Shown here piece after piece: positions 14,819 to 53,165 of a stretch of DNA of 64,000 nucleotides. The number at the start of each line of letters is the position of its first letter. Within the stretch, counting starts at the first letter, position 1. The position numbers and the translations under genes are program-made. A model generated the notes under the pieces. That model saw nothing but the letters and a program-made list of their open reading frames with translations. It had not been told where the DNA came from and made no database searches. Origin of the DNA: Echinarachnius parma (taxonomy: Eukaryota; Echinodermata; Echinoidea; Clypeasteroida; Echinarachniidae); contig JBAMJV010008096.1 of NCBI GenBank assembly GCA_037951105.1, forward strand, positions 62,001 through 126,000. The letters are read 5' to 3'.

Positions 14819-14899
14819 TCAGTGACAGTTATGACAGTTGGGGTGGCACTTGTCACCGTTCACACGGCAACGACAGCCTCCACTGATGTCACCAGTACC
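14819..14899 (-). CDS. RBCK1: RBCK1 exon 13: C-terminal zinc cluster and stop
   Basis: 26 codons plus [23 protein letters not shown] then NCHNCH, the HOIL-1 tail that helps form its extra zinc cluster. Acceptor is a T9-AG tract. Too short to show as a long open frame. Confidence 0.95.
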   Translation of the reverse strand, partial: GTGDISGGCRCRVNGDKCHPNCHNCH

Positions 14900-17800
14900 C
14901 TAAAAAAAAAGACAGATATAGGTCATTGCAATAATAAACTTGCACGGATTCAGACAGGTTTATTTATTTACTTGGAGTATACCTTTTTTTCTTCTCTGAC
15001 TCGCATCTCCTTCTCGCTATTACACACTTATATACTGTACTCTTAATCTTGATATGTATTTAGAAATAATGTTATTTCATTGTTTACTGTAACTAAGGAT
15101 ATGCATAACTTTTAATATAAAGGATATGGCGATGTCTCAAGCTTCCAGCTTATACTGAACTCTGTGTGTTTCCATTTCATATTTATATATGCAATGTATT
15201 GTTGTGATCATGTGAATGGTACAAAAAATGGTTTAAGTAATAAAGTACCTATTGTAGGTGAGTGAAAAGTGGAAATCACATTTGCTAATATCTAATGATA
15301 TGGCTTTTGTGCTTGCTAGATTGAGTAGAGTAGATCATTACCATTACAAGAACTCACCCCTTTCCCCCAGCGAGCCTGCTTGGTGACCCAGCAGATCTCA
15401 GTCTGACACACGGAGCAACGCAGCCAATCACATCCTCCCTTCTTCTGCACGATGATGCTGCATTGTGGGCAATGCATCGCCTCACCAGTCTGCACCAGAG
15501 CCTGGATGAAAACAAAACAGACAAAAAACATAAATAACACTATTGTGCTCTAGCTAGCATCCTCTGGTGGCCATGGCAACTGGACCACCACTTGGAGCAA
15601 GCCCTGCAACCAATATCTTACAGGTTTTGCTTTTTGGGGTTACCCGTATTCACATTAGGCTGCAGAACTTCTCCCTGATTGATTATGTAATTTCTATTGT
15701 TTTATTGTAGATCTGTGCATTTCATATTGTATTGTTGTTGAAATGAATATATTGCTTTATTTCATTGTCAGAATGATTTATGATTGTGAAATATGAAAAT
15801 CAAATCATATCATATTTCATATATCAAATCATATCATATCATATTAATTTTATTTCAATCTTTATTCCAATTCATTAAAAATACAACAAACAATCTAACA
15901 ATTTTACATAATCTTCATGGTACAAAATAAATACATTTACTCTATCAATAATATTTAATCAATAATAATAATAATAATATACATATCATATCATATCGAA
16001 TCAAATCAAATCAAATCAATTAAAATCAAATGGAATCAAATTTAATCAATTCAAATAAAATAAAATCAATTCAATTTGAATCAAATCAAATCAAATCAAA
16101 CAATACCTGTAGGGTGTCCTGGGTCTGCTTTGCAGCCACGTCGTTCTGGGCCCGGATCTTGAGATCCTCCTGGTACTGCTTGCAGTTGATTCCCTCATGG
16201 ATGGCTTTGCAGGTCAAGCAGTTGGTGCGATGGCACAGCGGGCAAGGGAAGAAATTGTTATTGTCCTCGTAGAAGCAGAAGCCCGTGCAGTCGGTGGATT
16301 TGCAGTGGAAGCTGTTTGCCGCTGTTGCCTCTGCGCTCCGCAGACTCCGCTCAAGAAACTTCTGGTAGTCTCCGACTGCAAGAAGCTGAAAGGAAGAGGA
16401 TATAAATTTGGGTTTCATGTAAGTTTATTACTTGATTATTGACATGAAAACTTGATGAAGCAGAACCCTTTGCATTTGGGCATTTTGCAGTGGAAATTAT
16501 TCCTAGCCATTGCCTCTGGACTCGGTGAATGTTGGTCAAGAAACTTCTGGTAATCTTCTGGTAAAAGAAGTTGAGGGAAGAGGATATAAACTTTTGTTTC
16601 AGGAAAATTACATGACTTTATTATTGGCAAGAAAAGTAATTATATCATCATTGAAGCAGAACCCCATGCAGTCGGTGGATTTGCAGTGGAAACTGTTTGC
16701 TGCCGACGCCTCTGCGCTTCGCAGACTTCGATCCAGAAACTTCTGATAGTCTTCAATGGAAAGAAGCTGATAAGAAGATGATACAAATTTGTGTTTCAGG
16801 TAAGTTTGTGACTTAATTATTGACATGAAAGTTTATAAAAGCAGAACCCATTGAAGCTGGGCATTTTGCTGTGGAAACTGTTCATCACCTTTGCCCTTGT
16901 GCACTCTTCTGGTAGTCTTCAGATGAAAGAACCTAAATAGAGAACACGACATAAATTTAAGTTTAGTGTTAAGTCACAACTTCATTGAACAAAACTGTAT
17001 GATTATACCAAACAAGAGAAACCTTATTGGGAATACAACATAAATTTAGGTTTAATGTAAATTCACAACTTCATTGAACAAAATTAAATGATTTACTAGA
17101 CAAGAGAAACCATCATTATGGACACAGGACCAGTTGCAGTTGTTGATTTGCAGAGTGCTGAATAGATTAATTGTATGATGGATCATTTGCCAGTTGTGCT
17201 TCAAAATGTGTAACTATGTTTTTATGAAATGAATAACAAAACAGTATATGTGTAATCACTATATCATAGTACATTGATAATTAATGAATTTGGGAGTAAT
17301 ATGTGACCCGCTATATAGCAAAACCCTGCACTTGTCAGTAATTCATGTTTTGAAGAAATGGGCATTTTAAATTCACATAATGTGTGTAAAAGACTTATGA
17401 TTGTAAAAATTGAAACACTTATATATCTTCGCCAATTATTGACCATTTTGTTAGAACTACGGATCAACTGAAAGCTTGTGATAATGCCTTTCTAATGGTA
17501 TCAAAATCTACATTTCGATTTTTACAAAGTCCAGGGTTTTGCTATAGCCGGTCACATATAATACATCATCGTAACAAACTTTTTTCAGATAAATTTTTGG
17601 AAGAACTCACTGCTTTGATTTCCCTCTCCAGAATAGACTCGGTGCAAGGAACTCCGTGGTCCATACCTGGGCACTTGACCAATGCATCTGTAGAGTGGCG
17701 CACATGCTCACTCAGGCATTCCCTGTAGCAAACGAAACCAGAGAAACAGCACATATGGTTATGTAGGGTTCAACACTAGCCTAATGAAACAGGTTAATAA

Positions 17801-20800
17801 ATATTTATGTATGGCCGGTAAATTGTTATAAAAGTAAAATTCGCTGGATCTAATAAAAACTAGATTTTCAAAAATGACAATGGCAGAATGAGAAACTCTT
17901 GTGTTTTCAATGTCAAGCCTTATCTATTATTCTGCAGGTTTTGGACAAAAGGGAGCCGTCATTATGTATAATACAAAGTTTACCAATAATATGGGGGACA
18001 GTAAATTTTATGTGGAGGTTTGGAATAACAAATCCGCTTTTGATATCTTACCTGCAGAACGTATGAAGGCACTCCCTAAGACTTACCTGCAGAACGTATG
18101 AAGGCACTCCCTAAGACTTACCTGCAGAACGTATGAAGGCACTCCCTAAGACGTACCTGCAGAACGTATGAAGGCACTCCCTAAGACTTACCTGCAGAAC
18201 GTATGAAGGCACTCCCTAAGACTTACCTGCAGAACGTATGAAGGCACTCCCCAAGACTTACCTGCAGAACGTATGAAGGCACTCCCTAAGACGTACCTGC
18301 AGAACGTATGAAGGCACTCCCTAAGACTAACCTGCAGAACGTATGAAGGCACTCCCTAAGACGTACCTGCAGAACGTATGAAGGCACTCCCTAAGACGTA
18401 CCTGCAGAACGTATGAAGGCACTCCCTAAGACTAACCTGCAGAACGTATGAAGGCACTCCCTAAGACGTACCTGCAGAACGTATGAAGGCACTCCCTAAG
18501 ACTAACCTGCAGAACGTATGAAGGCACTCCCTAAGACTTACCTGCAAAACGTATGAAGGCACTCCCTAAGACGTACCTGCAGAACGTATGAAGGCACTCC
18601 TAAGACTTACCTGCAGAACGTATGAAGGCACTCCCTAAGACGTACCTGCAGAACGTATGAAGGCACGCCCTAAGACTTACCTGCAGAACGTATGAAGGCA
18701 CTCCCTAAGACTAACCTGCAGAACGTATGAAGGCACTCCCTAAAACGTACCTGCAGAACGTATGAAGGCACTCCCTAAGACTAACCTGCAGAACGTATGA
18801 AGGCACTCCCTAAGACGTACCTGCAGAACGTATGAAGGCACTCCCTAAGACGTACCTGCAGAACGTATGAAGGCACTCCCTAAGTCTTACCTGCAGAATG
18901 TATGAAGGCACTCCCTAAGACTAACCTGCAGAACGTATGAAGGCACTCCCTAAGACGTACCTGCAGAACGTATGAAGGCACTCCCTAAGACGTACCTGCA
19001 GAACGTATGAAGGCACTCCCTAAGTCTTACCTGCAGAATGTATGAAGGCACTCCCTAAGACGTACACCCTCTCCGTTCTCAATTTCCAGGAAACACACAG
19101 AGCAATCAAAGGGCTCCTGGTTTGGGACCAGGTCTTGCTCGTCCACCTGGAGCAGTTCCTGGTAGTTCAGGGCCTGCTGCTGCTGCTCCATCTGGGAAAG
19201 AATCAATTGAACTACATTTGAATTTGAATCAACAAATTAGGTAATACTGATGCTATGATAATATCGAGGTTGCCTGGCTGGAATACTTCCCAGGGAGTGG
19301 AAATGTGCAGTATGTTTTCGTTAACCGGGGTCATAATAGTGATGTTCTGCAAGTGTCAAAAGACGGAAAGTATGCTATATAAGTAGCCACCATTATTATT
19401 ATGACTATAGGCGCACGAGGCAGGGGGCTCGGGGGGTTGCAGACTCACCCCCCCCCCCCCCCCAACCCCTTTCCCCAAGAGATTTGAAAAAGGGGCGATA
19501 CCCAGGCAAAAGATATCTCATATTAGGGCAAGGTCATCAGATATGTGAGCAAACTCATTTTATATTCAATGTAATTTTGGGGCAAAACGTGTCATATTTG
19601 AGAAAAACAATAAATCATCTAGAAATCGTAGTGGTGAAGACTTTTGTTTCCTGCTTGTCAGCAAAAAATGGAAAGGATGATAACATGGGTAAAAGAATGA
19701 TGATATCATAATTTTATATGACCAATAAAGAAACTTAAGTTTAGGATAAGGGATTAGAATCGGGAATGGGATTTGTTTCGTGTATGGTTTAGCTTAGTGT
19801 TGAGGGACAAGTGTGTAGTTGGGAAAATAAGAGTTTTTTAGGCATCATGTGATATACAAAATGGGACATAGACAAAATGGAATTGCAATTTGAACTAACC
19901 AAATGTATATTGTAGGTTGACAATTCAACATACCTCCTTTAAAGCCTGTTCATTGGCCTGCATTCCTTCCAGGTAGAAGTTTTCAGATGGATCCAAGACG
20001 TAAGAGCCCTTGTCTGGTATTCGGTACCCCACTGGTCTCTCCGCCATACATGCCTGGCAGCCTGGTATTAGAGGGGGGTTTACTAGAGTACACTGGGAGC
20101 ACTTCCAACCAACCTGAAAGAAAAAGTTAAACATTTCAACATTTTACTTTTACACTTATGACATTTTAGATCAACTAAAACTCAAAGATATCATAAACCT
20201 TCAATGGTGGATTGTACCCTTCTAGTCTCTCTGCCATGCAATACATGCCAGGCAGCCCGGTATTAGAGGGGGGTTTACTAGAGTACACTGGGAGCACTTC
20301 CAACCAACCTGAAAGAAAAAGTTAAACATTTCAACATTTTACTTTTACACTTATGACATTTTAGATCAACTAAAACTCAAAGATATCATAAACCTTCAAT
20401 GGTGGATTGTACCCTTCTAGTCTCTCTGCCATGCAATACATGCCAGGCAGCCCGGTATTAGAGGGGGGTTTACTAGAGTACACTGGGAGCACTTCCAACC
20501 AACCTGAAATAAAAAGTTAAACATTTCAACATTTTACTTTTACACTTATGACATTTTAGATCAACTAAAACTCAAAGATATCATAAACCTTCAATGGTGG
20601 ATTGTACCCTTCTAGTCTCTCTGCCATGCAATACATGCCAGGCAGCCCGGTATTAGAGGGGGGTTTACTAGAGTACACTGGGAGCACTTCCAACCAACCT
20701 AAAACATTAAAAGAAACAAGTTTAACATTTAAACATTTTAATCATGTACACTTATGACACTTTAGATCATTTAAAACTCTACGACATTGTAAACCTTCAA

Positions 20801-23800
20801 TGGTAGATTGTACCCTACTGGTGTCTCAGCCATACATGCCTGGCAGCCCTGTATTAGAGGGGGGTTTACTAGCTCGAGTACACTGCGAGCACTTCCAACC
20901 AACATAAAGGTAGTTTAGTTTTGGTAAGGCTGAACTTTAGTAGCTAAAACCTGCACAGTAACATTATAAACTAATAGTTATAACTCCACCATGCTCAAAA
21001 GGTATACAAAATTACAAACGACTAAGTAAAAAGCCTGTTATCATTCAAAAAGAGCCATTAAAACACAAGAGGGCGCTTTTTAAAAAGGCATTGGTTTCAA
21101 CCATTTTTCATACAAAATTATGCATGTGATGTTTTATTGATATAATGATTAAATAGCGAGATCATCAACAACTATTTAAAAAACGCTTTTGAAATTTTTT
21201 GAAAAAGTGCAAGCATTTAAAAAAAAATTTTCTAAAAATCATCTTATTATTTGGGCCCCAAATAATTATAAGATCAGATATATTTATTGATATTTCAGCC
21301 GTTTCTGGGTCGATTTTGACCAAATAAAGTTTATTCTGCCATTAAAAGTGCATGTTCTCTCAGATTCGACACTCAGTTTTTCATTACCTCACAAACAAAT
21401 TGTGATGTGCAGCGCCCTCTCTACCAAAACTAAACTACCTCTTTAAAAGAAAGGGTTTCACATTTCAACATTTTAATCTTGTATTGGCAAAATTTGTGTC
21501 AACTAAAATTCAAAAGACATTGTAAATCTCCAATGGTTTGATGGTATATGGTACCCTTCTGGCCTTAGAGGTTGTCCTGGTGCCATCTGTAGAGGCCTTC
21601 CGTCACCACCTGACGGAAGGAATCAAGCAACTACTGGACTAGACTTTTACTTGCACTTTGTAAATAAGCATCTGCGCACCCTGGCACCCCTGTGTCTGCA
21701 TACATACGCACACCAGTATCTGCAAGAATCTTCAGAATCTTCAGTACATAGCATAAGTGCACTTTCAAGGAATTAAAATGTGTTTTAGATTTCAACATTT
21801 AAAGCTCTTGTCAGTTACCTCTGAACAAGTGTAGATTGAAGTTGCAGATGTATTTGGAAAATAATAATCATTCCTACTTACATCAGGTGCTGCTGGCCGC
21901 TTGATTCTACAGAGTCTAGTGACCAATAAACATTACATGCCTGACCAACTTTCTTCTCAAAATATCAATGATAAGTTGAAGATGTATTTGAATTAATAAT
22001 CATTACTACTTACATCCAGGGCTGCTGGAACTTTTCTCTCAGGACGTCTAGATTCTAAGGGGTCTGATGACCGATAAACCCCTGACCCTGAGACCAACGA
22101 TGATCCACTGCTGACCCTCGTAGGACTGGGCACCAGTGGCTGATTCATCTCTCTCGATGTCAGGGTGTCGACTGAAGAGGGCGGTATGACCCTGTCTTGG
22201 AATGTTCTTCTTCGCTGTGTCTCGGCACCAGATGGCCACTGGCCTGATGGGGGTTCTGAAATTGAAATGATAAAATTGATAAATTCCTTTATAGGCACTA
22301 AATCTATGGATTCCTGGTGTGGTCTAAATATAAAAGAGCAAAGTATTACCCTGTCTAATCATGTTCTTCCCGGCAGGGGGTGTATTCTGAAAACAATTTT
22401 TAAGTTAAAATTTATCTATGTCACCAAAACATTTCGAGCCAAATCAGTATTCTGAAAACAGTACTAAATGAATACAGATTTGCTTTAAATATTTAAGTGA
22501 TGTAGATACAATAAATTTTAACTTAAAGTGATCCGTGTAAAGTGTCAGATTGCACAAACTGAGATTTGAGACTTCAATCCTATATCAATATCATTGTAAA
22601 ATAGAATTGAAAGATTTGTGAAAGTTTGAAAGAAAACGAACACTGTTTACCTAGTGAAAAAAACGAATATTGAGTTCATATTTTATCACCGAATACTGAT
22701 GGTCTGTTGTAGATTTGTCGCAGTAATAATCATCCGTTTGATCTTGACGATATCCGCACCCGTGTATACAGCTACAGACGGTACGTAATTCATGGAATTT
22801 GCGCACGCTAGGCTCAAAGTTCAGTGGGTCGGGAAAATTTCCCACGCGCGCTGGCAGGACGTGTTCAGCGACGACAATTGTACTTTTTATCAAAACCGTT
22901 AGCTAACGCTTTTGAAATAATGATTTTCAATGATAATTATCTTCATACTAAAGGGACATTTGAAAAAATCAAACCCTATTTTATTCTTCTCTTACCATAA
23001 GCTAAACAACACGGCAGAAGAGAAACGAGGAAGCTCCAAGTATTTTTCATGGAGTTAGACACTTTACCTGGATCACTTTAAAATAGTTTTCAGAATACAC
23101 CCCCTGATGGCCACTGACAATTATAACAACAGAAACCATATGTGACCCACTATAGCAAAAACCCGGCACTTGTCGGTAGTTAATGTTTTGGAGAAATGGG
23201 CATTTAAAGTTCACACAATGTGTGTAAAAGACCTATGATTGTAAAATTTAAACAATCATATCTCTGCCAACTATTGACCAATTAGTTAGAACAAAGCATC
23301 AAATGAAAGCTTGTTATGAGGCCTTTTAAATGGCATTAAAATCTACATTTTGATTTTTACCGACAAGTGCCGGGTTTTGCTATAGCCAGTCACATATTAT
23401 ACCTATCCTTGCAACCAAGGGTGAATAATTCCCACTAAACACTCTCCACTGTTACTTCAATGTTCTTACCAGTTCCCATCCAATCATGCAATCTAGGATG
23501 AATAGTTGAAAGCTAGAAATTCTCTCAAAAGTACAAATTTAAATTCAATATTTCTTGTTACTTCAGAAGATTTGTTGTGGAATCATTCAGTGGCAACTTT
23601 TTAACATGATACAAAGAGAGTTAAGTGATTGTACCTCTTGATGCTTTGCGTCGCTGATTCTTATTTTTCTCAATGAGGGCGTGCTTCTCTATTTCCACAT
23701 CCTGCCTGCTGAGGGCATTCTTTTCTGCGCTGGTAAGATACAGATACAGCGTCGCCCCAGATGATGTGATCTGGTTCTGACCTAACGACTCGTTGTCTTT

Positions 23801-26800
23801 CAGTATCCTTCCATTGATGATCCAGTTCTGCACTTGAATCGGAAGGTCGTAATTGATAAATGTCTGCAAAGGATATGAAGAAAGAGAATAATGGGGGAAA
23901 GGTGACAAATTAGTTACAATAAGACAAGTGTGACTTCGTACACTACGTTATATTTACAGGAAAGACTTAACAATTCCATTCATAACATTAAGTGAATCAT
24001 GTCACTATTGAATTGTGTTGACAGAAAACAGAATTTAATTGAACACATTAGACGAGATCATTAAATACATGTACAGGTTTAAAAACAGAAACCTTATATA
24101 CTTACCAGTATTGGCTATTCTGCTGGCAATGCAATAACACAAGTATATTAGATACCACTCTATAACAACATGCATAATTTTGACTCAATGATACCCTAGG
24201 TGTTATTGACAGGAAGGACTTAATGATTCCATTTTAATATAGCTTAGTTCACAAACAGTATCATAGCCAAAAAAAGACGAGATGGAAATTCACAGATAAT
24301 TCACATGTATCTGATTCAAATTACTTGCCAAAACATCTTAAAAGTAATTTTAAGCTGAATTACGTTACTTTTATCTTTTTTTCTGTGCTCATTTTCAATT
24401 ATTCAATTTCAATCTGGTAAGGTTCCTATATTTTACAAAATAAAAAGCTGCAATGCTTTGCATGATCCCTCTCACTTTCCTTATAAAAGCTGATTTCATT
24501 ATCCTTGGATAAGTGTCAGGTATAGCTTCTGAATATTACGAGCATGGGGGAACTTCCCCCATTCAAGGGTCTTTGTGGCTCGATGGTTGAGCACCGGTCT
24601 AGCAATCTGGAGGACTTGGGCTTGATTCCTGGTGAAGCCTTTTTTCCTTTGCTCATTTTCAATTATGTTAATTTGTATACCATAACTGACCATTTTCTTC
24701 AATCCAGCGATGGTGATGGTTGGGGGTACGGTCATCCTCAGCTTCAGCTTGGATGCTTGTCTGTCTTCCACCTGCACCTGGATCCTGCAAAGTCAATCAT
24801 AACAAAATGGTTGCCAAAGTAAAAACAACATGTAAAGAGAGATCATGCATATGGAATATGATTACATAATGAGGGATCAAAGAAAATATAGAATATGATA
24901 TGATGAAGGGTCAAAACCGACAATATACAATATATTTACAATCAAATTGCCTGTAGCTTTGATGGGCAAGCCTGAGACATCTCAATTTGGTGTCTGTAGA
25001 AAAAGTGAATTATACCAAAATAATTATCTTGAACAGAAAAATATACTTCATAACTTAAATTCTCTGACAAGAAATTCATGAACATTTACCAAGTTCTAAA
25101 TCATAAAACCAGATGTGACATTTAATGAGAAGAAAACAAGCACTTACGATATGTCACCATTACTTTGAGGTGGAGGACCACCAGATGTTTCCACCAGAAT
25201 GCTGAGCTTGGGTCTCTGTTTTGCCAGGTTCCTTGCAAAAACTACAGCATTCTCCTCGTCTCCACCTTCTATTGATGCCTTCAAACATTCCACCAAAGTA
25301 TCTGTGTAAAGTTTGAGGCAGACATGATTTAAATATGACGTCAATCATTCATTATTCTCCTTCCTCTGCTCCTGCTCAGATCTTAGCCTTATAAACCATG
25401 ACGCCTTTCATGGCAAGCCATTGGCGCCAATATCAGCTCCACCACACAATTTAAAATGTATGTATATTTTCATGTTTGTATTTCATATGGTTAAAAAAAT
25501 AAGGTGAAAATACATGTAATTCAATACCAAGGATTGTGGCCATTGCTTAATTGCAATACACAAACAATCAGCATAATGAATACAATGGTGGAACAAAACA
25601 AAGGTTTAGAACTAGACAACAATCTGTCCAACTCTCCCATAATCAGCTAGCACCTCTCGTTGGTTTTGCACTCCATGCACCCTCCTCTTCCTACCACCAT
25701 ACACATACCAGTAAATGCAATTAGTGCTCAATTGCAATAGAAATAATAACATACAAATAGGCAATATGAATGCAAACGGTGAAAGACATAGATTTCTAGA
25801 CTTACGGACATCCATCTGTTCTACTCTCCCATTATCGACCGGAACCTCTCGTCTGGTTTGCTCTGCCTTCTCCTCAGGTTTTTCTGTTGTAACAGTTTCT
25901 CCCCCTCCTCCTCCCAGTAGTCTGCTCATCCCTTGCATTCCAGGGAACTTGGCTGCCATAGAGGCTATTCCCCGTTTAGCTGCACAAGGACAAATTATAC
26001 AAAATGTGACCAGTTATAGCAAAACCCTGCACTTGTCTGTAATTCATGTTTTGAAGAAATGGGCATTTTAAGTTCACATAATGTGTGTAAAAGACTTATG
26101 ATTGTAAAATTGAAACAATCATATCTTTGCCTATTATTTATCAATTTGTTAGAACAAAGCATCAAATGAATGCTTGTGATGAGGCCTGTCTAATGGTATG
26201 ACAATCTACATTTTGATTATCACTGACAAGTGCAGGGTTTTGCTGTAGTCGGTCACAAATATCACTATCCATTGCCAATTTTGATTTAATTTGATTTTTT
26301 TTTTACATTTTGAATTACTTAAATATTCTTTCTATTCCTCTCTACATGTAGGTTTCCTTTCTAAGTGCATTGAGACATAATTGTAATATTTTGTGTTATA
26401 ACTTTATAAGAATAGTTAAAATAGAAATGTTATCTTCTAATCAAGAGTTCTTGATCCCATAGAGTTAAAAGAAGAATTATAATCATTGAGATAAAGATGC
26501 AAAATAAAAATTCATACAAATTAATTTTCTGACTTTTTTTTGTGCAAGTTACTAAGAAAAAAAAAACTTGCTCCAAAACATATTACTTACCTTAAATTGT
26601 ATCATATTGAATTCTATAATATTTTTAAAATGACCATTCAATTTTTCACTCTCTAAGAGCACTACAATACATTGAGCAACAAGTAGCTGTACGTATTATA
26701 TAATCCTGAAACATTCAACATTTTCTGATAACAATTTGCGTCTAGATTTCTTACCCTGGTCGGACAAAGTCAATTGTTTTTCCCAACCATAAATATTAAT

Positions 26801-29160
26801 TATAATGCAAGTATGTACCTGATGCCATTTTAGGTTGTTCTTGAGTCTTCACTGCGGTAAAAATAGCCAGAAATTGTTGTCCGTCGGTCTGATTGCTAAA
26901 AGTCATAACATGCCTGCTGCCATCTTTGTTCAGTACAAAGTCAAATTCTCGAGCTGTCTGATGAAGGACGGATATCTCGGAGATATCCTCATTTATCAGC
27001 GGTGATGTTCGCTGCAGCAAAGAAATCAAATGGAGAAAACAAACTCTCAATATTAACACTTTCCTCATAATTTCATGGGAACAAGTTCAAGACATAAAAT
27101 GCAAATTAGCAATTGCATACTTGTACTTCTAGTCAGAAATAGATGCAACTGCCAGTACATTTTGTTTACACTCCACGCATCTAGCAGGGGCAATCAGTGA
27201 GAATATACTTAGCAGTTACACCACTTGCTTTATGTTCAATGAATGTAATTTGACTCAAACTTGCCACTTTGAGGGGGGGGGGGGGGGGGGGGGGCTGTAG
27301 ATCAGCTACTAGCTGAACCATTCCATACAAATAAATCATTTGAAACCTTTAACTTTTCTTCCCATATTTGATTTTTAAAAAACATAAATAGGATGTGAAT
27401 GGATATGAATGTGGTGTGGCAAGATTGGTAGAGCGCACGCTTTCCGATCATGAGATCCCGAGTTCGAACCCTGCCCACTGCCTTTGTCCTTCAGCAAGAC
27501 AATTTATCCACAATTGCTGCTCTCTACCCAGGTGTATAAATGGGGACCCGGTAGGAGGTGAAAGCCTAGATATGTGATGGATCTTCTCAATGCCTATGAG
27601 CCGCTTGGAAGGAATGCTCCCCAGGGAGTGGAGATGTGTACACAATGTGTGCTGGTTTGCACAAGTATCCTAGCTATGACCGGGGGTAATATTATCATTA
27701 TAAAGCGCTTAGAAATGATTATCAATCATATTAGGCGCTATATAAACCGAGTATATTAATATTATTATTAAATAATCAACGAGTAATGGAACGATCCTCA
27801 AAATCCAATACGTCACTGATGCCATACTATGTACGTTTCTCGTGAAAATCACTGTTGGCCAATCTACTATGTAAAACCATACATGAAATATAAAATATAT
27901 GATGCCACACGCAGTACCCCGGGGTACCGTTGTACCCCGGTATCCCGCGTTGTGCAGTGCCATCTTGTGTCCACTCGAAGTACAACCGTATTGCGTTGTG
28001 CATGCCGTGCAGCGCGCGATTGTATGCACGCTATACCTATAGTACAGCCTATATTAAATAAATAATTAAACAAAATGGCGGATGTTCGTCTGGTACCCCA
28101 GGGTACCGTTTATGTCATCATATATTAATTCATGATTTTCTTCCTATTTGCTCGCTACAAAAATAGACAAGAACATTACAAATAATATCCGCAATATCAA
28201 CAATAAAATTACCCGAAATGTGGTGGCATACTTTGATACAATCTTTAGCAAATTACGACAAAATTGGTAACTCTGCACGTCCCCTCATAGACCCCCGTTA
28301 ATGGAGCACACGCACTACATAAACAGACACAAAACCTGAGAGAAAGTAATTTACCTCGTTTACTTCGCAATTCTTAGTTACTCAATTGACCTAACAAACA
28401 AGATTTCTTTACTTTAAAAAGGTAAGTTTGTACCAGGCCTGGTTTGTACGGGCCAAGACATCAAATTTTTTGAATACATCCTTGTCATGCTTGTCCGAAG
28501 TTTGGCATATTCATGATCGATACAGTATCAGCAGTTCACAAAGGGTAATTGTGCGCGAACAACCGAGTACAAAGGTCATGTCTGTACATCAATGACGTTA
28601 CGACATCCGAGCAGATGGGTTCATTAGCATGTATGTAAACACAAAAACAGGTACTTTTGAAAAACAAATGCAGACTTTATTGGAGGTTATACATTTGATT
28701 TTCTTGTGGAGATCAACCTTTGAGGGTATACAGAACAACATATATATTTTTTAATTCGTCAATAAAGTCTTCTTTTAAGACCAATAAATATGTTGTTTTT
28801 CAGGGCCTCTTTACGTTAAATAAACTGTTAGAAGGGTGTAACTGTAAGGGCTAACACTGTAGTTCTGTTAATGTACAGATGCCCCCAAAACGGCATTTTG
28901 TATATATTTATTTGTCTAGTGTTAAAGATACTTACCACAAACCGATCATCGTTCCTTAATAAGCGTATGGAGTAGCCCCCTTGCCTTGCATTGAGTAGCT
29001 GTATCTTAACTGGGATGGCTGGCCCTGCCTCTGCCCCTCCTGCATGGCGCTTTGGCTGAGTGGGCGATGAGTGCGCCCCTTCAAACGAGGTCAAGAAGCC
29101 ACGCCCTGAGAGGATGACCGAAATTCCTGTGGTTTGACCCCTTGGCAAACTTGCGTGCAT
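14819..29160 (-). CDS. RBCK1: HOIL-1/RBCK1-type RBR ubiquitin ligase with an N-terminal SHARPIN-like PH domain (13 coding exons)
   Basis: The predicted product is a subunit of the linear ubiquitin chain assembly complex (LUBAC), which attaches Met1-linked ubiquitin in NF-kB and cell-death signalling. HOIL-1 itself is an RBR E3 that esterifies Ser/Thr. Thirteen exons with GT-AG borders join without a frame break into 755 codons plus stop (human HOIL-1 is 510 residues, SHARPIN 387). Order: PH-like fold (about 1-130, ending [17 protein letters not shown]), Gly/Glu linker, LUBAC-tethering segment (about 198-235), UBL (about 250-325), basic linker, RanBP2-type NZF (438-465), RING1 (about 525-575), IBR (about 605-660), RING2 (about 685-755). 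The likely catalytic Cys is C705 in GGCDWLRC. The C terminus CHPNCHNCH is HOIL-1-like. The ATG at 29160 has an in-frame stop four codons upstream. An extra 5' non-coding exon is likely but not located. Family call is very sure; exon borders are sure by phase. Confidence 0.93.
15358..15501 (-). CDS. RBCK1: RBCK1 exon 12: RING2 catalytic core
   Basis: 48 codons, [18 protein letters not shown], then [18 protein letters not shown]. The first Cys of CDWLRC is the expected catalytic residue (C460 in human). Donor GTGAGT. Confidence 0.97.
15780..16100. repeat. ATATC/AAATC simple-sequence tract
   Basis: TCATATCATATC and AATCAAATCAAATC pentamer arrays in the RBCK1 intron, right up to the exon 11 donor. 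Confidence 0.8.
16107..16385 (-). CDS. RBCK1: RBCK1 exon 11: IBR domain
   Basis: 93 codons in phase 0 from [11 protein letters not shown] to DTLQ. It carries [33 protein letters not shown] and [16 protein letters not shown], near identical to the human IBR. Three truncated copies of its 5' half lie upstream in the intron. Confidence 0.96.
16453..16570 (-). pseudogene. Partial duplicate of the IBR exon, copy A
   Basis: Repeats the first 40 codons of exon 11 ([28 protein letters not shown]) in the upstream intron. Its acceptor reads CTCAA instead of CAG, so it should not be spliced in. The second half and donor are absent. Confidence 0.85.
16646..16768 (-). pseudogene. Partial duplicate of the IBR exon, copy B
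   Basis: Closest to the real exon: [20 protein letters not shown] and [15 protein letters not shown]. It keeps an intact ATCAG acceptor but has no second half. Confidence 0.85.
16843..16933 (-). pseudogene. Partial duplicate of the IBR exon, copy C (most decayed)
   Basis: TTTAG acceptor, EDYQK and a degraded [19 protein letters not shown] reading with frame damage. Copies A-C and the exon are spaced by about 165-200 bp. Confidence 0.7.
17302..17556. mobile_element. MITE, TGTGACC...GGTCACA family, copy in RBCK1 intron
   Basis: Terminal inverted repeats contain TATAGCAAAACCCTGCACTT on the left and GGGTTTTGCTATAGCCGGTC on the right. About 255 bp, non-coding. TA on both flanks would fit a TA target duplication. 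Confidence 0.85.
17611..17722 (-). CDS. RBCK1: RBCK1 exon 10: rest of RING1
   Basis: Completes the split Arg codon and encodes [21 protein letters not shown] and LEREIKA, donor GTGAGT. Matches RECL...CPF...LLEREIKAL of HOIL-1. Confidence 0.95.
18052..19065 (-). repeat. 35-bp minisatellite made of the RING1 exon end and its splice donor (about 29 units)
   Basis: On the coding strand each unit reads CTTAGGGAGTGCCTTCATAC, then GTTCTGCAG, then GTAAGT, GTACGT or GTTAGT. The last unit is the real end of exon 9, so the array consists of copies of the CLHTFC codons plus the 5' splice site. 35 is not a multiple of 3. Units are almost identical. Confidence 0.95.
19031..19191 (-). CDS. RBCK1: RBCK1 exon 9: first part of RING1
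   Basis: 53 codons plus two bases from MEQQQQAL to CLHTFC. It contains the CSVC and CLHTFC zinc ligands. The 5' splice site is embedded in the last unit of a 35-bp tandem array that copies this exon end (18052-19065). Confidence 0.9.
19245..19415 (+). repeat. SINE 3'-part remnant
   Basis: CCCAGGGAGTGGAAATGTG, AACCGGGGTCATAATAG and GCTATATAAGTAGCCACC with TTATTATTAT match the body and tail of the fuller SINE at 27410-27775. Confidence 0.6.
19934..20113 (-). CDS. RBCK1: RBCK1 exon 8: NZF zinc finger
   Basis: Sixty codons in phase 0. [20 protein letters not shown] followed by AC gives the W-x-C-x2-C-x10-C-x2-C ligand set of a RanBP2/NZF finger that binds Met1-linked ubiquitin in HOIL-1 and SHARPIN. 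Acceptor TTTCAG, donor GTATGT. Confidence 0.95.
20114..20904 (-). repeat. 195-bp tandem duplications of the 5' half of the NZF exon (four copies)
   Basis: The landmark ACTTCCAACCAACCT (end of the exon plus acceptor on the plus strand) recurs at 20101 (real exon), 20296, 20491, 20686 and 20891. Copies keep codons for [19 protein letters not shown] and then diverge to stops. The first three are almost identical; the most distant has lost the CAG acceptor (ATG in its place). Confidence 0.92.
20905..21446. mobile_element. TTAA-type non-autonomous element, family A, copy 1
   Basis: Begins AAAGGTAGTTTAGTTTTGG and ends CCAAAACTAAACTACCTCTTTAA. Shares ACACAAGAGGGCGCT and TTATTTGGGCCCCAAATAAT with the copies at 31287, 53610 and 60404. 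It abuts the outermost NZF duplicate. Confidence 0.85.
21880..21950 (-). pseudogene. Partial duplicate of the 3' end of RBCK1 exon 7
   Basis: CTTACATCAGGTGCTGCTGG and CTAGTGACCAATAAAC repeat the donor end of exon 7 (CTTACATCCAGGGCTGCTGG, CTGATGACCGATAAAC) about 130 bp downstream in transcription. Confidence 0.7.
22014..22255 (-). CDS. RBCK1: RBCK1 exon 7: Ser/Pro-rich linker
   Basis: Eighty codons rich in Ser, Pro and Arg, ending PAALD, donor GTAAGT. Disordered linker between UBL and NZF. Pieces of this exon are repeated in both neighbouring introns. Confidence 0.85.
22340..22372 (-). pseudogene. Partial duplicate of the 5' part of exon 7, interrupted
   Basis: ACCCTGTCT..ATGTTCTTC matches exon 7 text, and its continuation ATGGCCACTG resumes at 23107. 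The two pieces are separated by the inverted-repeat element at 22374-23106. Confidence 0.5.
22374..23106. mobile_element. TIR element, CAGGGGGTGTATTCTGAAAAC
   Basis: The left end CAGGGGGTGTATTCTGAAAA is the reverse complement of the right end TTTTCAGAATACACCCCCTG. About 730 bp. CAGGG ends are common in hAT elements, but I could not see a target duplication. Confidence 0.75.
23141..23394. mobile_element. MITE, TGTGACC...GGTCACA family, second RBCK1 copy
   Basis: TGTGACCCACTATAGCAAAA to GGGTTTTGCTATAGCCAGTC, same interior as the 17302 copy. Confidence 0.85.
23635..23863 (-). CDS. RBCK1: RBCK1 exon 6: second half of UBL
   Basis: 76 codons plus one base. [20 protein letters not shown] and ATLYLYL are the UBL strands (human VLQQWVIGQRL and SAYLYLL). 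The exon ends in a charged Lys/Glu/Arg-rich helix. Confidence 0.93.
24565..24640 (+). repeat. tRNA-derived SINE fragment
   Basis: GTGGCTCGATGGTTGAGCAC is A-box-like and GGGCTTGATTCCTGG is B-box-like. It lies antisense in an RBCK1 intron. Confidence 0.55.
24691..24784 (-). CDS. RBCK1: RBCK1 exon 5: first half of UBL
   Basis: 31 codons, [17 protein letters not shown] to GLKKM, then donor GTCAGT. The split codon TC|G joins exon 4 to give SIQVQVED, like the VSVED strand of HOIL-1. Confidence 0.9.
25148..25301 (-). CDS. RBCK1: RBCK1 exon 4: LUBAC-tethering motif region
   Basis: Encodes [20 protein letters not shown] and [16 protein letters not shown]. This aligns with the N-terminal helical LTM of HOIL-1 (the AVAGGDEQVAMK...LAEQR pattern), through which HOIL-1 and SHARPIN pair beside HOIP. 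Confidence 0.9.
25806..25979 (-). CDS. RBCK1: RBCK1 exon 3: linker
   Basis: Acceptor TTGTGCAG, donor GTAAGT. Contains [15 protein letters not shown], a run of Gly and an acidic/basic segment. No known domain. Confidence 0.85.
26005..26257. mobile_element. MITE, TGTGACC...GGTCACA family, third RBCK1 copy
   Basis: TGTGACCAGTTATAGCAAAA to GTTTTGCTGTAGTCGGTCAC, about 250 bp, intronic. Confidence 0.85.
26819..27011 (-). CDS. RBCK1: RBCK1 exon 2: second half of the PH-like domain
   Basis: 64 codons plus one base. The acceptor is TTTGCTGCAG and the donor GTACAT. It ends with the helix-forming [17 protein letters not shown], which matches the C-terminal helix position of the SHARPIN PH fold. Confidence 0.85.
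27273..27294. repeat. Poly-G run (about 20)
   Basis: Uninterrupted G tract in RBCK1 intron 1. Confidence 0.9.
27410..27775 (+). repeat. tRNA-derived SINE, nearly full length
   Basis: The head contains TGGCAAGATTGGTAGAGCGC (A box) and CCGAGTTCGAACCCTGCC (B box). The body contains CCAGGGAGTGGAGATGTGTA, and the tail GGCGCTATATAAACCGAGTA runs into TTATTATTA. The acceptor stem does not pair, so this is not a working tRNA gene. Confidence 0.8.
27898..28125. mobile_element. MITE with GGTACC-rich palindromic ends
   Basis: Ends TATGATGCCACACGCAGTAC and GGTACCGTTTATGTCATCAT, with internal TACCCCGGGGTACC. The same element in opposite orientation is at 54886-55104. Confidence 0.8.
28936..29160 (-). CDS. 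RBCK1: RBCK1 exon 1: start and first half of the PH-like domain
   Basis: 75 codons from ATG to GTG, then donor GTAAGT. It holds the first strands ([18 protein letters not shown]) of a fold that resembles the SHARPIN N-terminal dimerising PH domain. This part has no counterpart in vertebrate HOIL-1. Confidence 0.8.
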
Positions 29161-36256: not shown

Positions 36257-36339
36257 ATGAAGTTGCTGGAGAATCCAAAACTTGAAGCCATCAGTGAAGC
36301 ACTTGCAATGGAGACTGGAGAGTGCAGAATACTTGGAAA
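36257..36339 (+). CDS. MAF1: MAF1 exon 1
   Basis: ATG to GGA AA, 27 codons plus two bases, donor [18 protein letters not shown] is the conserved MAF1 N terminus. The start matches the family start. Confidence 0.95.
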
Positions 36340-39300
36340 GTATGTCATCTTTCTAAACAGTTACTATTTATTAGTATACTAAGTATTAGTATTGAACATG
36401 ATCGATTATGAAATGTTTGAAAATTGTAAAATGAATTTGTGAAGTTTTTTGCAGTTTTATTTTGTTTACATCAAATCTTTCCTACGTAACTTGAAGTTAT
36501 TTTGTTGTAAACATATCCATGAATGCATTAAATGTGAGTCTTAAGAATTAAACTTCTTTCCAAGTTGAATTGGCAATATCATGCAAAAAAGAATTGTAAA
36601 TTGTGAATGATCAAGATTGTAAACTTGTCTGCGGATCAATTTTTTTCATCGTAAAAGTGAAAATGAGGATGTTCCAGTTTGATATTATTTGAATGGCTGG
36701 AAATATTATAATGCACATAATAATAATATCAACTTGAATGCTTTTGTTTAATTTGTATAATTTTGTATTAAAGGAGGGGGGAAATCCCGGCTTTGATTCA
36801 GGTTTATAGCTTTAAATATGTGCCTTTATTGATATACCACAATTAAAAAAAAAAAAGAAATCCTTAAGTTGGGAAAAAAAGGTAAATTTCATGCAACTTT
36901 TTTGCTTTATTTCGCATCGGCGTTCCATGCTCCTAAAAAAAGTCATTTATAGCAGAGCGGGAATGTGCGCACGTGTCGCCCGATTCATGACATCACATGC
37001 AGACCGCAACGCGGAGGAATGTGCATTGTTTACATGCAGAGCCTATGACTTGCTTGTAAAACAAACTCGTTTTTGCTTGTAAATTGAGGTTTTACTGAAA
37101 ATGCTTAAGAATTGCTAAGCAATGAATTGTAGCAGGATGTTCAGCTACACATCTGAGTGTATATCGTCCATGATATAAACCTGAACAAATGTTTGCAAAT
37201 ATTGAAACAAATTGAAATAATATCTCTGTGTCAACGTGAGTATTGCACTCAGCGTGTACGTCTATGACCGAGCTAAACTGCGATTGCCTGCAGGTGACGT
37301 CACAAAGATGACGTCATTTTTTGTTCGCCCGGGACTCAGTTTTTTTACGGGGGTTCCGAAAGTGAATTTACAAGTTGATTTTTTTATTTTACCGGGTTTT
37401 CCCACGAAGAAAATATGTTTGTATTAGTAATCTTCATGAAAATCTGCCTTAGATACAGTAAAACCCAATTTTGAGGCAGTTTTCTTGTCACCATACCTTT
37501 AAGGGGAGACTGTACCTTTTTTTGAAAATTTCATTGTTTGGCCTTTGTTTCTCTTTAAACTTGGCAGAAATGTTTTTTTAGTGACAAAAAGACGATTTCA
37601 ACAGTAATTTTGTATCTTGAGGTCACGGTCAAGGTCACAGGTCATAAAACAAAGGAAAACAAAGCGATTTTGTATTTCCCAAATAACTTTGTCCCTGGTA
37701 CGGAAGATGTTAGTCATCGTGGTGCTAAGATGAAAAAAGAACGAATAGATCGGTTGTCTCACGATGTATACAAACTAGTGTATTGCGACGTTTCGGCTGC
37801 GAACTGCTAGTCTTCATCTGGCAATGAGGACTGAGTGCTGCGCTGCGACTGTGTTATATACCGCCTGCGAGGTTTCTGTACTTTGTCCCTGATAGTCCTA
37901 TTGCTCTGAAATTTGGAGGAAAGCTTCATTATGCATGACTCTACAAGTTGAACTACAGCCATTTCATTACCATTTATAACAACTGATTTATGAAGCATTA
38001 AAGATAAATATTAAAGGCATATATGCGTGGGTTATTAGACGCGTGGATCCATCTTGCGCACTTTTACGCACGGTACGTAATCCCCATTGGCTCAGTTATA
38101 AGTAGCGATCGCAAACTGTCCCCACTTCCGAATACCCGAGTAAAAAATGCATAAAAAATAGTCGCGTTCGGAATGTTTGTACTAGTCGAATGGAGATCCA
38201 TCAGAGATGTTTACGAGCGAAAATATCACGTAACACGCTTAACCGCAAATACTTCAAAGCGCCGCTGTTTGATGTCTTAGGTGACAGCGTGAGAAATTCT
38301 TGCTGCATGCAATTTCATAAGAAGGCCCGTGTTCAGATATTTCGAAGCACCGCTCTTCGATCGATCCAACACATATCGTGAGTTTACCTCGAGAGATTAC
38401 GGTGGAGTCGAGTTGGAATTTGCTGACTACCCTTTATAACCCACGCATATATGGCCCAAAACCACTAAATATGCACCATTAGTGAAAAAGTGTGTCTCCA
38501 GTGATCCTGGTCTTCTAGAGAAGAGATTTAACTTTACACCAGTTAAATTGTACTTTTACTTGATAGTGAGGGTCCTTCTCGTAAAAGTAACCATAAATTC
38601 AAAGTGATTGAAAGTAAAATAAACAATTGACAGGGGATAGAATATGGCCGAGGTATCAAAAACCCCATGTCCCCAAGACAAAATCGTTCAGTTTTTCCAG
38701 GTTTATAAAAAAATAAGAGTACACAGGAGCAAAATAAGTGCGGTTTTACGACAGCAGCACAGTGTTCTATGAAACATAATACAAAATGTTATGATCCCAC
38801 TTTATTTAAAATGTTGATGGCCATTGGAAATGTGTCGCCAAATCTAGTGAAACCTACGTTACCATTATCTTACTAAATAAAGGGATATGGTTAGATGCTC
38901 ACATCTGTACAGTTATCTTATTTTTCTAATGATGAGAACATGGCATACAAGTAAAAACATATTTAAAAGTCAAGACACAAAAGAAATGTGACTGGGAATA
39001 TAAGAAAGAGACGGGATAAAATAGTAGATTTAAGAGGTGTAACATACGTTACCACAAATTTTAAATATAGGTAACCACTATGATGTAAATTACTCTACTG
39101 GAGTTCAGGCCAATGAAGTAGATTGATATCACACAAAAAATGAAAATTAAGTTCAACTAAATGTCGCTTAATCAACCAAATGATGTAACATACGTTACCA
39201 GGTGATGTAACATACGTTACCAGGTGTAAAAAAATGTGTGTGGGATATACTTAATAACTATCTAAATTGATAGCAAACTGGTTAACGCCATCTATATGTG

Positions 39301-42300
39301 GTTAAGGGTGAGCTTAGCAATCATTTTCAAGGCCAAAATTGTATTCAAACAACACTAAATGTAACATACGTGACCAATTTGAAACATACGTTACGGCCAA
39401 ATTACATATCTTTGGAAATCGTTAACGGACACCTGACTAGATGAATGTTCACAAAATATGTTTTAGTGGTTTTATTAACACTTCATTGTTTTTTTTCATG
39501 GTTGTAACATTCAGTTAACAACTTTGAAACTAACTAGCTAACATGTGAAATGTTGATGGTAACGTATGTTACACCTTTTTATCAAAATGAAGCACACATT
39601 TCTTGCACAGTAACATTACGTGCTCATTTTCTCGGAGTATATACTACCAAGTATGCACTTTAGATTGGCATTAAAATCAAACGTTTAGCAAGAACTTTAT
39701 TTTTGACATTTTCTGACTTTTCAGTTGTACATAATTAGTGGTTTTGAGCCATATGCCTTTAATTACGTAACATGATATTGATAATTAAAATATGATTATT
39801 CAAATTATACATAAAAATATGTGACACATATAAGTGTAGTTCAGATTGTTCAGACAGGTGTCCTCTATAAGTGTGCCAATTTTCAGGTGAATTAAAGAAA
39901 CTATAGAGAGTCAGGAAAGGAAACGGTGCCATAACGTTGGCATTATTCAATATCTGAGAAAGAGCCATTTAAAGTTTTGTTTTCTTTATATTTTAAGTAT
40001 GTTCGTCTCATTAATATCACTTTTTGAGGGGTCTAGAATACATATTTTCTGTTCAAACTTTGCAAGATGATAATTGAATGTACAAAGAAGATGGCTAAGT
40101 AAAAATACTTTTTTAGACATAAAATAACATTTTGGGCAAATTTGGGGTACAGTCTCCCCTTAATGTTTGTTCCAGATTATGAATTGTGAACATTTTATTT
40201 TTTGTTTCGGAGTTGAGAGCTCAGACTCGGAGCTAGTAAGTACTGCAAGATGGATAGCATGTGCAGCAAGGCCACTGGGGGAAAATGAGGATATCCATTT
40301 TGATGAGGAATAACGATTAACATGCCTGGAAATAAATCTTGTCCTAAATCCAATGTTATGATGCAAGTTATAACTTGCATTATTTGTTCATCGTAATTCT
40401 CAATTTTGTTATTTATTTTTTATTTAGAGTCGAGAGCTACTCCTGTAAAATGGCCGGCCAGGACAAGCGGCTGTTCAAGCTGCTGAGTCAGGAGAATGGC
40501 CACACTCCCAGTGAGCTGCAGGCTCTGTCCCCACCACAGACTGCTCCCAACCTCAGCCGTAGCTCTGGGGAGGAGTCCGGCCCTGAGGGACCCCTGTGCC
40601 ACACCTGCAGCAGGAAAATGATCTTCTACCTCATCTCCACGCTCAACACTGCATTTCATCCAGACTACGATTTCAGGTAATTTGGCTTCTTTTTCTGTTC
40701 TCAAGGCTGAGGGGATGTGGGGAAGAAGAGGCTATGCCTGATGAGATATCTTGTGCAAGAAAATCAAAATGCACAAATTTATGGTTATAATATTCAGGAC
40801 TAGTCCCGAAACTTCTATGAAAGGTGTCTTGCAGTGTAAAATAATGTGATCAACGTCTTGAACAGGTAACAAAGTTTCAAGGGTTAGTTTTGTTACATAC
40901 ATTAGGGTTCTGACTCAAAATTGCTTGATTATAGAAGAATGTGTTGAAACATGTTCATTTTTAAAATTGTGTACAGTCTTTATATTTGATGTCTTATTTT
41001 AGGATTTTGCAGTCATCAATAATATACCTCAATGATAAAACAATCTTGATAAAAACGTTACTTGCATTTATTCCTGCTTTTCTGAATCTACCCAATAGCG
41101 ACGCCAAGAGTGATGAGTTTAGCCGAGAGCCGAGTCTGGATTGGACCATGAATGCTGTGGATGGGAACCTGTTCTCTGCCGGCGGGGAGCTGTATACCAC
41201 CCAGATCAGACCCAAGCTGTGGGCTGCCATCAATGACGAGATCAGTGCCAATGAGTGTGAAATCTACAGGTAAACAACTAAACATAGACTACAGTAATTT
41301 GGAATTGTCTTTCCTTGAAAGCTTACAATGTATTACCAAAATGGATCATGGCGCCTGGCAGCAACATCAGATTGTTCATGTAATTTATTAATTGTATTGG
41401 TAAATTGGATAGTTAAAACAAATCAACCTCAAGTGTAAAAAGTTATTCGACTATGAATGTTTGATTGTCATTTATAATTTAAAAATACATGTTTTATTGT
41501 GTGAAAGTTTTTGTGTCATAATTGTAGACCTGCATTTCATATTCAGATTCTGATTTCCTTTGAAATATATTTCCCTCAGCTACAACCCCGACCTGTCCTC
41601 GGATCCCTTTGGTGAGGAAGGTGTCCTGTGGTCCTTCAACTACTTCTTCTACAGGTACAACACTTGGACCAGCTTAACCAATACCAGCATGTTCATTTGT
41701 GCAGTAAATGCACTTTACCCCCAGATGTTACATTTCAGAAGTCAAATACTAATTTTCTTTCATTTACCCCCCAGCTACAACCCTGACCTGTCGTCGGATC
41801 CCTTTGGTGAGGAAGGTGTCCTGTGGTCCTTCAACTACTTCTTCTACAACAAGAAGCTCAAGAGGATTCTTTTCTTCACCTGCAGAGCAACAAGGTACGA
41901 GTCTAATTGTCCTTTGCCTCACTTGGTGCATGTTCCTGTTCCTAACTACCACTGCCTAAGCCTAATTATCATTTCCTAGAAAGGGTAAAATAGTCCTCAC
42001 ATGTCATTGTGTGTAAAACAATGACTTATTTTCATTTTTTATGTTCTCTAAAATATTAAGATAAGTGATTTTTATGAGTTCTTTCACATTATTTATTACC
42101 TTTATGCATTGCAGAAATCTGTTGAGTAGCCTCATTTAGTTTGTGAATATTAAAGGTCATAATATATTGATCAAGTCTTTCACTTTCAATTCCACTTCCT
42201 GAAATTGGATTATCATAGTTATCAGGATTGGATATTATATCAAACATGAACTCAAGAAACTCATGTGATAGTCAGCTCATGCATATTTGTACTACAATGT

Positions 42301-49382: not shown

Positions 49383-49584
49383 TCAATCGTCGTCCATTTC
49401 GAGGTTGATGTTCTTGCCGAATTTGGCGTAAAGCTGGGCCTTGAGTTCAGCGAGCTCAGCCTTGATGGCGTCGCTCACCTTGTCGACGCCGGCAATCTCC
49501 CCCTCCATCCTTGTCTTGGCGTTCTCCACGGACTGAACGGCGTCGTCCAGCCTCTGGTTGAAAAACACCTCTCCGATCTGATAC
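49383..49584 (-). CDS. PFDN4: PFDN4 exon 4
   Basis: Begins after AATCAC. G-TAT-CAG joins the two bases CC of exon 3 to give IPYQIGEVFF, as in the family. Ends NINLEMDDD and TGA. Confidence 0.9.
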
Positions 49585-52494: not shown

Positions 52495-53165
52495 CTGAAA
52501 GACAAAAGGTGGGAATATTCAATTCTTGCTCTCTGCTTCGCACAAAATTAGTAGACGTTGAAACTACACTAACTAGTACAAGCACCAGAGGCAGAGGTCA
52601 TATGGCAGCAGATTCCTCACTAGACAGAAAAATCCATAGATCTCGTTCTGGAGGGGGGTCCTTTAATATTATGACGTCATACTATCCCCTCCATCCCGAG
52701 ATGGAACTCTAAGGTGTTCGTACTGTGACAGAGCAAACCAACTAATAAGCAGCCGCACGATTATATGACAGGTCAAATATGTGCCGCAGCGCGCGAGCAT
52801 CGATAACACAGGGGTTCAGCACTCGCACGCTTACGTTATGGCGATCATGGAGTGAGAAAGATTTACAGGATATTTACAACGAAAAAGGCGAATGAAATGA
52901 CCAGACAGAGATTGATTTAGTAAGTGAAGAACTTGACTTGTGAATGAATACTTTTACTTTACTTTTGTGACATTTTTGGACATTGTCAATTTGATGTGGA
53001 GAACTGGGATACTTATTACACTTGTCTTCGATTTTGTTTCTTCGAAGGAGCTCCGTCACACAAGCGAATAGGGAAGAATTCAGAGTATGTAGAGAACGGT
53101 TGAGAAAAAAATCGTTAAAGAACCCTCAAAACATTGGCTAATTTTTTGGACTAATTCCTCACTCA

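Follow-up and report, generated by a model that had tools for sequence, protein, structure and literature searches.

In mice, HOIL-1 and SHARPIN jointly fold their LUBAC tethering motifs (LTMs) into a single domain with a pseudo-two-fold axis and an Ala–Ala contact, and the HOIP UBA has two sites to which the UBLs of the two proteins bind (Fujita et al., PMC6044281). HOIL-1 is described as the sole RBR protein in which Trp replaces the catalytic His (review, PMC9527308). Mouse Sharpin has eight coding exons and Maf1 at its 5′ side (PMC7371178), and for human SHARPIN the coordinate of Ser17 is higher than that of Pro294, which places the gene on the minus strand (PMC8184987). A survey of the mollusc Aplysia identified HOIP and the HOIL1 gene LOC101863809, one of whose four isoforms is SHARPIN-like and without the TRIAD; Table 6 of that survey enters one gene under both HOIL1 and SHARPIN, and its authors suggest that an isoform provides the functional analogue, with no MAF1 link or pre-split gene mentioned in the sections of the survey consulted here (PMC9334734). 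RNF31 has been reported across metazoans, including echinoderms (PMC12778051), and a 2015 review describes LUBAC expression as restricted to chordates (PMC4765238).

The window analyzed here (64,000 nucleotides of Echinarachnius parma DNA, contig JBAMJV010008096.1) contains a gene whose product carries an N-terminal domain followed by LTM, UBL, NZF, and a full HOIL-1-type RBR (Table 1). This gene is probably (at a rough probability of 0.7) the single LUBAC accessory-subunit gene and co-orthologous to the vertebrate genes RBCK1 (HOIL-1) and SHARPIN, still located at the SHARPIN address beside MAF1.

Table 1. Features of the HOIL-1/SHARPIN gene of E. parma and of its neighbour (positions are those of the window)
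Feature	Position	Strand	Description
Exon 1	28936..29160	-	aa 1-75; start of N-terminal domain (candidate PH, first half); donor GTG/gtaagt, phase 0
Exon 2	26819..27011	-	aa 76-139; candidate PH, second half; acceptor ctgcag, donor CAG/gtacat, phase 0 to 1
Exon 3	25806..25979	-	aa 140-197; linker; acceptor gtgcag, donor TCC/gtaagt, phase 1 to 1
Exon 4	25148..25301	-	LTM, aa 204-237; Pfam PF25393, E 9e-08
Exon 5	24691..24784	-	UBL, first part; HOIL-1 UBL chain 4dbg over aa 240-328
Exon 6	23635..23863	-	UBL, second part; PDB match to HOIL-1 UBL
Exon 7	22014..22255	-	aa 357-437; linker
Exon 8	19934..20113	-	NZF, aa 440-464, and following stretch; Pfam PF00641, HOIL-1 NZF chain 3b08
Exon 9	19031..19191	-	RING1 start; Pfam RING models, HOIL-1 chain 8eaz
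Exon 10	17611..17722	-	RING1 remainder; HOIL-1 chain match
Exon 11	16107..16385	-	IBR; Pfam IBR E 0.00018, below cut-off; PDB match
Exon 12	15358..15501	-	RING2 with putative catalytic Cys704 and Trp706; motif KKGGCDW, aa 701-707
Exon 13	14819..14899	-	HOIL-1-type C-terminal Cys/His tail and stop; stretch common to chain 8eaz
Three tandem NZF-exon copies	20198..20698 (starts 20698, 20503, 20308)	-	each with TAG after NZF core
MAF1 gene	36257..41880 (end approximate)	+	head-to-head 5′ neighbour of the HOIL-1/SHARPIN gene

The gene model is well-built. As the initial annotation had claimed, the 13 exons join in frame: all 12 introns are of the GT-AG type, the phases agree, and the joined coding sequence, read on the minus strand from 29160 to 14819, comprises 2268 bases (755 amino acids plus stop) with an uninterrupted frame. 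Three codons ahead of the first ATG (29160) lies an in-frame stop, so that the frame cannot begin earlier within exon 1. Exons 1 and 3 are GC-rich, as are exons 4–13, and the codon signal singles out no frame in exons 1 and 3; in exon 2 the proposed frame scores 0.03, vs. −0.28 and −0.24 for the other two. Exons 1–2 (or 1–3) might instead be part of another transcript, with HOIL-1 proper beginning at one of the in-frame Met codons within exon 3, the last of which is directly ahead of the LTM exon. This arrangement is quite improbable, since there is no phase conflict and exons 1–3 have donor and acceptor scores, computed with approximate scoring matrices, that do not fall outside those of the remaining exons. 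Furthermore, exon 2 is open in its frame up to the donor, the interval between exons 2 and 3 holds one ATTAAA (26290) and no AATAAA, and the exon 4 frame has no ATG before the LTM, so that an upstream exon would be needed anyway.

The identification of LTM, UBL, NZF, and a full HOIL-1 RBR in the initial annotation is borne out by Pfam matches (LTM, RING) and by PDB matches. With the whole protein as the query, the LTM reaches 27.5 bits, which is exactly the Pfam cut-off, and the exon 4 frame alone reaches 32.3 bits against the same cut-off. The RING models exceed their Pfam cut-offs, whereas those for ubiquitin, NZF, and IBR are not reached with the whole protein; the exon 8 frame gives E 5.7e-06 and 25.9 bits against PF00641 (NZF), just under the cut-off of 27. 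Assignment of UBL, NZF, and IBR is settled by the PDB comparison, in which matches are clear where the Pfam models stay below cut-off (HOIL-1 chain 8eaz, E 7.5e-107; UBL 4dbg, E 3.4e-14; NZF 3b08, E 6.7e-09). The SHARPIN LTM–UBL chain 5y3t_C is also matched (E 1.3e-08). In pairwise shuffle tests, the LTM–UBL stretch gives z of 18 to 39 against SHARPIN or HOIL-1 (18–30 for SHARPIN), and the NZF gives z of 9 to 14, with a provisional SHARPIN NZF sequence; hhalign probability for LTM–UBL is 97.6–99.3%.

The last 270 residues, which comprise the RBR and the stretch preceding it, are identical to HOIL-1 chain 8eaz at 155 of 270 positions, with 30/33 Cys/His residues kept, and the alignment runs to the last residue of 8eaz, including the HOIL-1-type C-terminal Cys/His extension. 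KKGGCDW (Cys704, Trp706) aligns with KKDGCDW of HOIL-1 chain 7yuj, and the corresponding Cys is Ala in 8eaz; Cys704 is therefore taken to be the catalytic Cys. Judging from the conserved residues, the RBR would have ester-forming activity; the NZF would bind ubiquitin. The order LTM–UBL–NZF–RBR, the catalytic Cys with Trp, and the C-terminal Cys/His tail are thus common to the E. parma protein and vertebrate HOIL-1 (RBCK1), but the LTM lies about 10 residues from the start of HOIL-1 and begins at residue 204 in the E. parma protein. SHARPIN shares with it an N-terminal domain ahead of LTM–UBL–NZF and a MAF1 5′ neighbour, but ends after the NZF, without the RBR that the E. parma protein carries. 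In exon counts, which alone were compared, the eight exons of the E. parma gene through the NZF equal the eight coding exons of mouse Sharpin (PMC7371178).

Residues 1–139 had been proposed to adopt a SHARPIN-like PH fold, which the Pfam, PDB, pairwise, and hhalign sequence tests did not substantiate: a SHARPIN PH domain is not recognizable by sequence in the E. parma protein. The Pfam Sharpin_PH model, which recognizes the human SHARPIN domain at 2.2e-45, gave no match to residues 1–139, with most matches above E 0.1 filtered out, and the PDB search with this segment returned nothing relevant (three irrelevant matches, E 0.1 to 1.6). In 12 shuffle tests against the SHARPIN PH domain (six matrices in local and global mode, 500 shuffles each), z was −0.8 to 2.0 and p was 0.04 to 0.84, and in an earlier run with three matrices and 2000 shuffles, z was −0.9 to 1.7; the best pairwise result was obtained with PAM250 (p 0.04 in the six-matrix run, 0.07–0.08 in the three-matrix run). 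The hhalign probability for residues 1–139 and the SHARPIN PH domain is 0.11%, and 64% of 150 shuffles score equally well.

A home-made hydropathy alignment of this segment to the PH domain (0/200 shuffles at first; z of 2.84 under one null and 2.31 under another) was rejected as not specific, as two of nine unrelated controls came near the PH value under the first null (1.99, 2.27) and one lay above it under the second (2.63). A crude Chou-Fasman pass found strand-rich stretches in residues 1–139, by a weak method that predicts the human PH domain poorly.

Position and context make a PH identity of residues 1–139 a reasonable guess. On the opposite reading, the gene would simply be the HOIL-1 orthologue, extended at its N-terminus by an unrelated segment specific to the lineage, and SHARPIN would have gained its PH domain after the vertebrate duplication. 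The lack of PH similarity by all four methods, next to an LTM–UBL stretch with z of 18 to 39, is what this reading expects; yet the extension occupies the position of the SHARPIN PH domain and is similar in size, and the gene adjoins MAF1 as Sharpin does. In addition, the human PH domain has a high content of Ala, Gly, and Pro and could have diverged strongly, with a possible loss of signal. An unrelated extension is regarded as unlikely.

The adjacency to MAF1 argues for a gene that represents the state before the split of HOIL-1 and SHARPIN. Exon frames of MAF1 are found on the plus strand at 40348–40677, 40965–41270, and 41554–41976 (Pfam Maf1, E 1.6e-19, 1.4e-13, and 8.2e-25, respectively), and the frame MKLLEN.. 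at 36257, which is too short for a Pfam match, is taken by us to be the first MAF1 exon. All four matches to the Maf1 family in the genome, with 11 candidates scored, fall at this locus only. MAF1 and the HOIL-1/SHARPIN gene are arranged head to head, with start codons 7.1 kb apart. Among the 32 open frames of at least 60 amino acids listed between the two genes, two match Pfam at E up to 0.1, both at chance level (0.062, 0.097) and far below cut-off, and the other 30 do not. Human MAF1 is presumed to lie on the plus strand. A given neighbour such as MAF1 would be expected by chance about once in some 20,000, and the adjacency means that the HOIL-1 catalytic half sits at the SHARPIN address. 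CYC1, HGH1, and GPAA1 were not found on the contig with MAF1: CYC1 is on C5083 and C5159, and HGH1 and GPAA1, which we assume to be SHARPIN-side neighbours, are on C3943 and C287, so that the synteny with SHARPIN rests on one gene, MAF1. The argument from the MAF1 locus is new and strong, the literature comparison having targeted the architecture and not MAF1.

Within the MAF1 gene, one exon is present twice, at 41581 and 41776 on the plus strand, 195 bp apart; presumably only the second copy (41776) continues into the next part of MAF1.

The E. parma gene appears to be single in the genome. Whole-protein search of the 1.2 Gb assembly listed 30 matches at E up to 1, with 50 candidates scored; 19 of these are the 13 exons and six exon copies of the HOIL-1/SHARPIN gene, and the other 11 lie elsewhere and match only the part from residue 449 on (E 0.016 to 0.95). 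The Pfam LTM model, which detects human SHARPIN (3.7e-18) and HOIL-1 (3.1e-19) about equally, exceeds its cut-off once in the genome, in this gene, and has one match below cut-off elsewhere. The human SHARPIN query ranks the gene first, yet at E 0.09 only, which means that this query has low power and could, alone, miss a diverged SHARPIN; five of its seven matches lie outside the gene, on C11689 (two), C464, C6299, and C1394 (E 0.29 to 4.9), the row for C6299 being the same as that for C464. With the whole-protein, LTM, and human SHARPIN queries together, no convincing second SHARPIN or HOIL-1 locus was found in the assembly, and a collection of prokaryote genomes gave 18 pattern matches, none of which is a relative. 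As in Aplysia, there is thus a single HOIL1 gene and no individual SHARPIN gene found (PMC9334734), and the existence of a single HOIL-1/SHARPIN gene outside vertebrates is to that extent partly known.

Several candidates were set aside. The LTM match on C542 (17.4 and 18.5 bits, cut-off 27.5), with Pro/Gly/Arg-rich frames and no UBL by eye, is attributed to chance. The C464 frame and one C11689 frame, as candidates for a second SHARPIN, look like NZF stretches of other proteins, and the former resembles what we take to be TAB2/3.

HOIP is encoded at a separate locus on contig C1256 (LDD exons, Pfam 4.2e-7; joined exon frames against RNF31, E 3.1e-22), which makes LUBAC possible in E. parma. 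The mitochondrial code of the assembly is of the echinoderm type: on the COX1 contig (C14600, 19.7 kb), aligned with human COX1, TGA stands for Trp at 13 of 14 positions, ATA for Ile at 13 of 18, and the one aligned AAA for Asn, while AGA faces Ser, Ala, and Gly once each. AAA is common in the long frames, with 18 among the 656 codons of the longest. Flatworms share this code, but the COX1 identity to human (365/476) is far too high for a flatworm; the assembly is thus assigned to an echinoderm, a hemichordate being much less probable.

Over LTM–UBL, human HOIL-1 and SHARPIN are identical at 65/132 positions, the E. parma protein and HOIL-1 at 46/126, and the E. parma protein and SHARPIN at 43/127; for the NZF, the identities of the same pairs are 21/43, 18/40, and 14/40. 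The HOIL-1–SHARPIN distance is the smallest over 166 joint columns and is smaller than the E. parma–HOIL-1 distance in 99.8% of 2000 bootstraps, in a three-sequence comparison with no outgroup that is rate-dependent, is not a tree, and assumes no unusually fast evolution in the E. parma lineage. HOIL-1 is thus not closer to the E. parma protein than to SHARPIN, which argues against a split of SHARPIN before the echinoderm lineage. Had SHARPIN and HOIL-1 already split, with this lineage re-fusing them or losing SHARPIN, a single gene would likewise be found, as expected from secondary loss, but HOIL-1 should then be closer to the E. parma protein than to SHARPIN, the reverse of what is seen. 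Moreover, the protein has one LTM–UBL–NZF set and not two, and in the protostome Aplysia, too, no individual SHARPIN gene was found (PMC9334734). Such an older split is very improbable.

The initial annotation interpreted the gene as the state before the split of HOIL-1 and SHARPIN. MAF1 adjacency, the single gene found, and the closeness of human HOIL-1 and SHARPIN to each other support this interpretation, whereas its further parts, namely that SHARPIN lost the RBR, that HOIL-1 lost the PH domain, and that one protein has the dimerizing function, hinge on the PH identity of residues 1–139. It is somewhat more probable than the contrary that ancestral LUBAC consisted of HOIP and a homodimer of one PH–LTM–UBL–NZF–RBR protein, that the gene beside MAF1 was duplicated to give an obligate heterodimer, that SHARPIN stayed and lost the RBR while HOIL-1 left and lost the PH domain, and that echinoderms remained undivided.

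In this mechanism, the product, with its N-terminal domain, LTM, UBL, NZF, and RBR, would bind HOIP through the UBL, and its LTM would pair with that of a second copy of the same protein, forming a homodimer in place of the vertebrate HOIL-1–SHARPIN heterodimer. The contact Ala of the LTM is conserved in the E. parma protein (three-sequence alignment). The NZF would read linear ubiquitin and the RBR would form ester-linked ubiquitin, and through the LTM homodimer one HOIP may carry the UBL, NZF, and RBR in two copies each. After duplication in vertebrates, SHARPIN would be the copy that remained beside MAF1 and retained the N-terminal domain but not the RBR, and HOIL-1 the copy that relocated and retained the RBR but not the N-terminal domain. 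We infer both the LTM homodimer and the direction of these domain losses.

The gene region also contains repeats and exon copies. The NZF-exon repeat (20046–20903) has a 195-bp unit, and its three copies have intact NZF cysteines and an acceptor, and a small common insertion relative to exon 8. No AATAAA or ATTAAA is present between 20698 and exon 8. The three copies are probably dead, or possibly serve as alternative last exons; if one were used as a last exon, a SHARPIN-shaped protein without the RBR would result.

At 18047–19065, a 35-bp unit is repeated about 29 times and holds the last codons of exon 9 and a 5′ splice site. In 28 copies, TTCTGCAG is followed by GT (12 gtacgt, 10 gtaag, 6 gttagt), so that many candidate donors, almost identical to one another, follow in series at the start of intron 9. 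Intron 10 (16436–16832, minus strand) includes two incomplete and diverged copies of exon 11 (IBR start), and between exons 3 and 4 (25640–25700, minus strand) the end of exon 3 is seen by eye to be partly duplicated.

Elsewhere in the window, frames of a putative prefoldin gene are found at 49386–49613 (minus strand), 52282–52518 (minus strand), and 54541–54738 (plus strand), the first with a Pfam match of 1.1e-10 and the other two with none. The gene looks like PFDN4, to which the last two frames are tentatively assigned. Its expected middle exon is seemingly located upstream on the opposite strand, perhaps as an inverted copy or an assembly error.

The combination of N-terminal domain, LTM, UBL, NZF, and RBR is undescribed in the titles and abstract openings among the matches listed, in a comparison that covers subscription literature thinly, and the consulted parts of PMC12154395, PMC9084887, PMC3897490, PMC3305615, PMC6585023, and PMC9005347 contain no statement on this combined architecture. 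The E. parma gene speaks against a LUBAC confined to chordates (PMC4765238), as do metazoan RNF31 (PMC12778051) and Aplysia HOIP and HOIL1 (PMC9334734). The proposed duplication provides a testable origin for both accessory subunits of LUBAC, which is linked to inflammation and to immunodeficiency. If it is true, the matching LTMs of HOIL-1 and SHARPIN, which form one pseudo-two-fold domain, would be explained by homodimer ancestry (PMC6044281).
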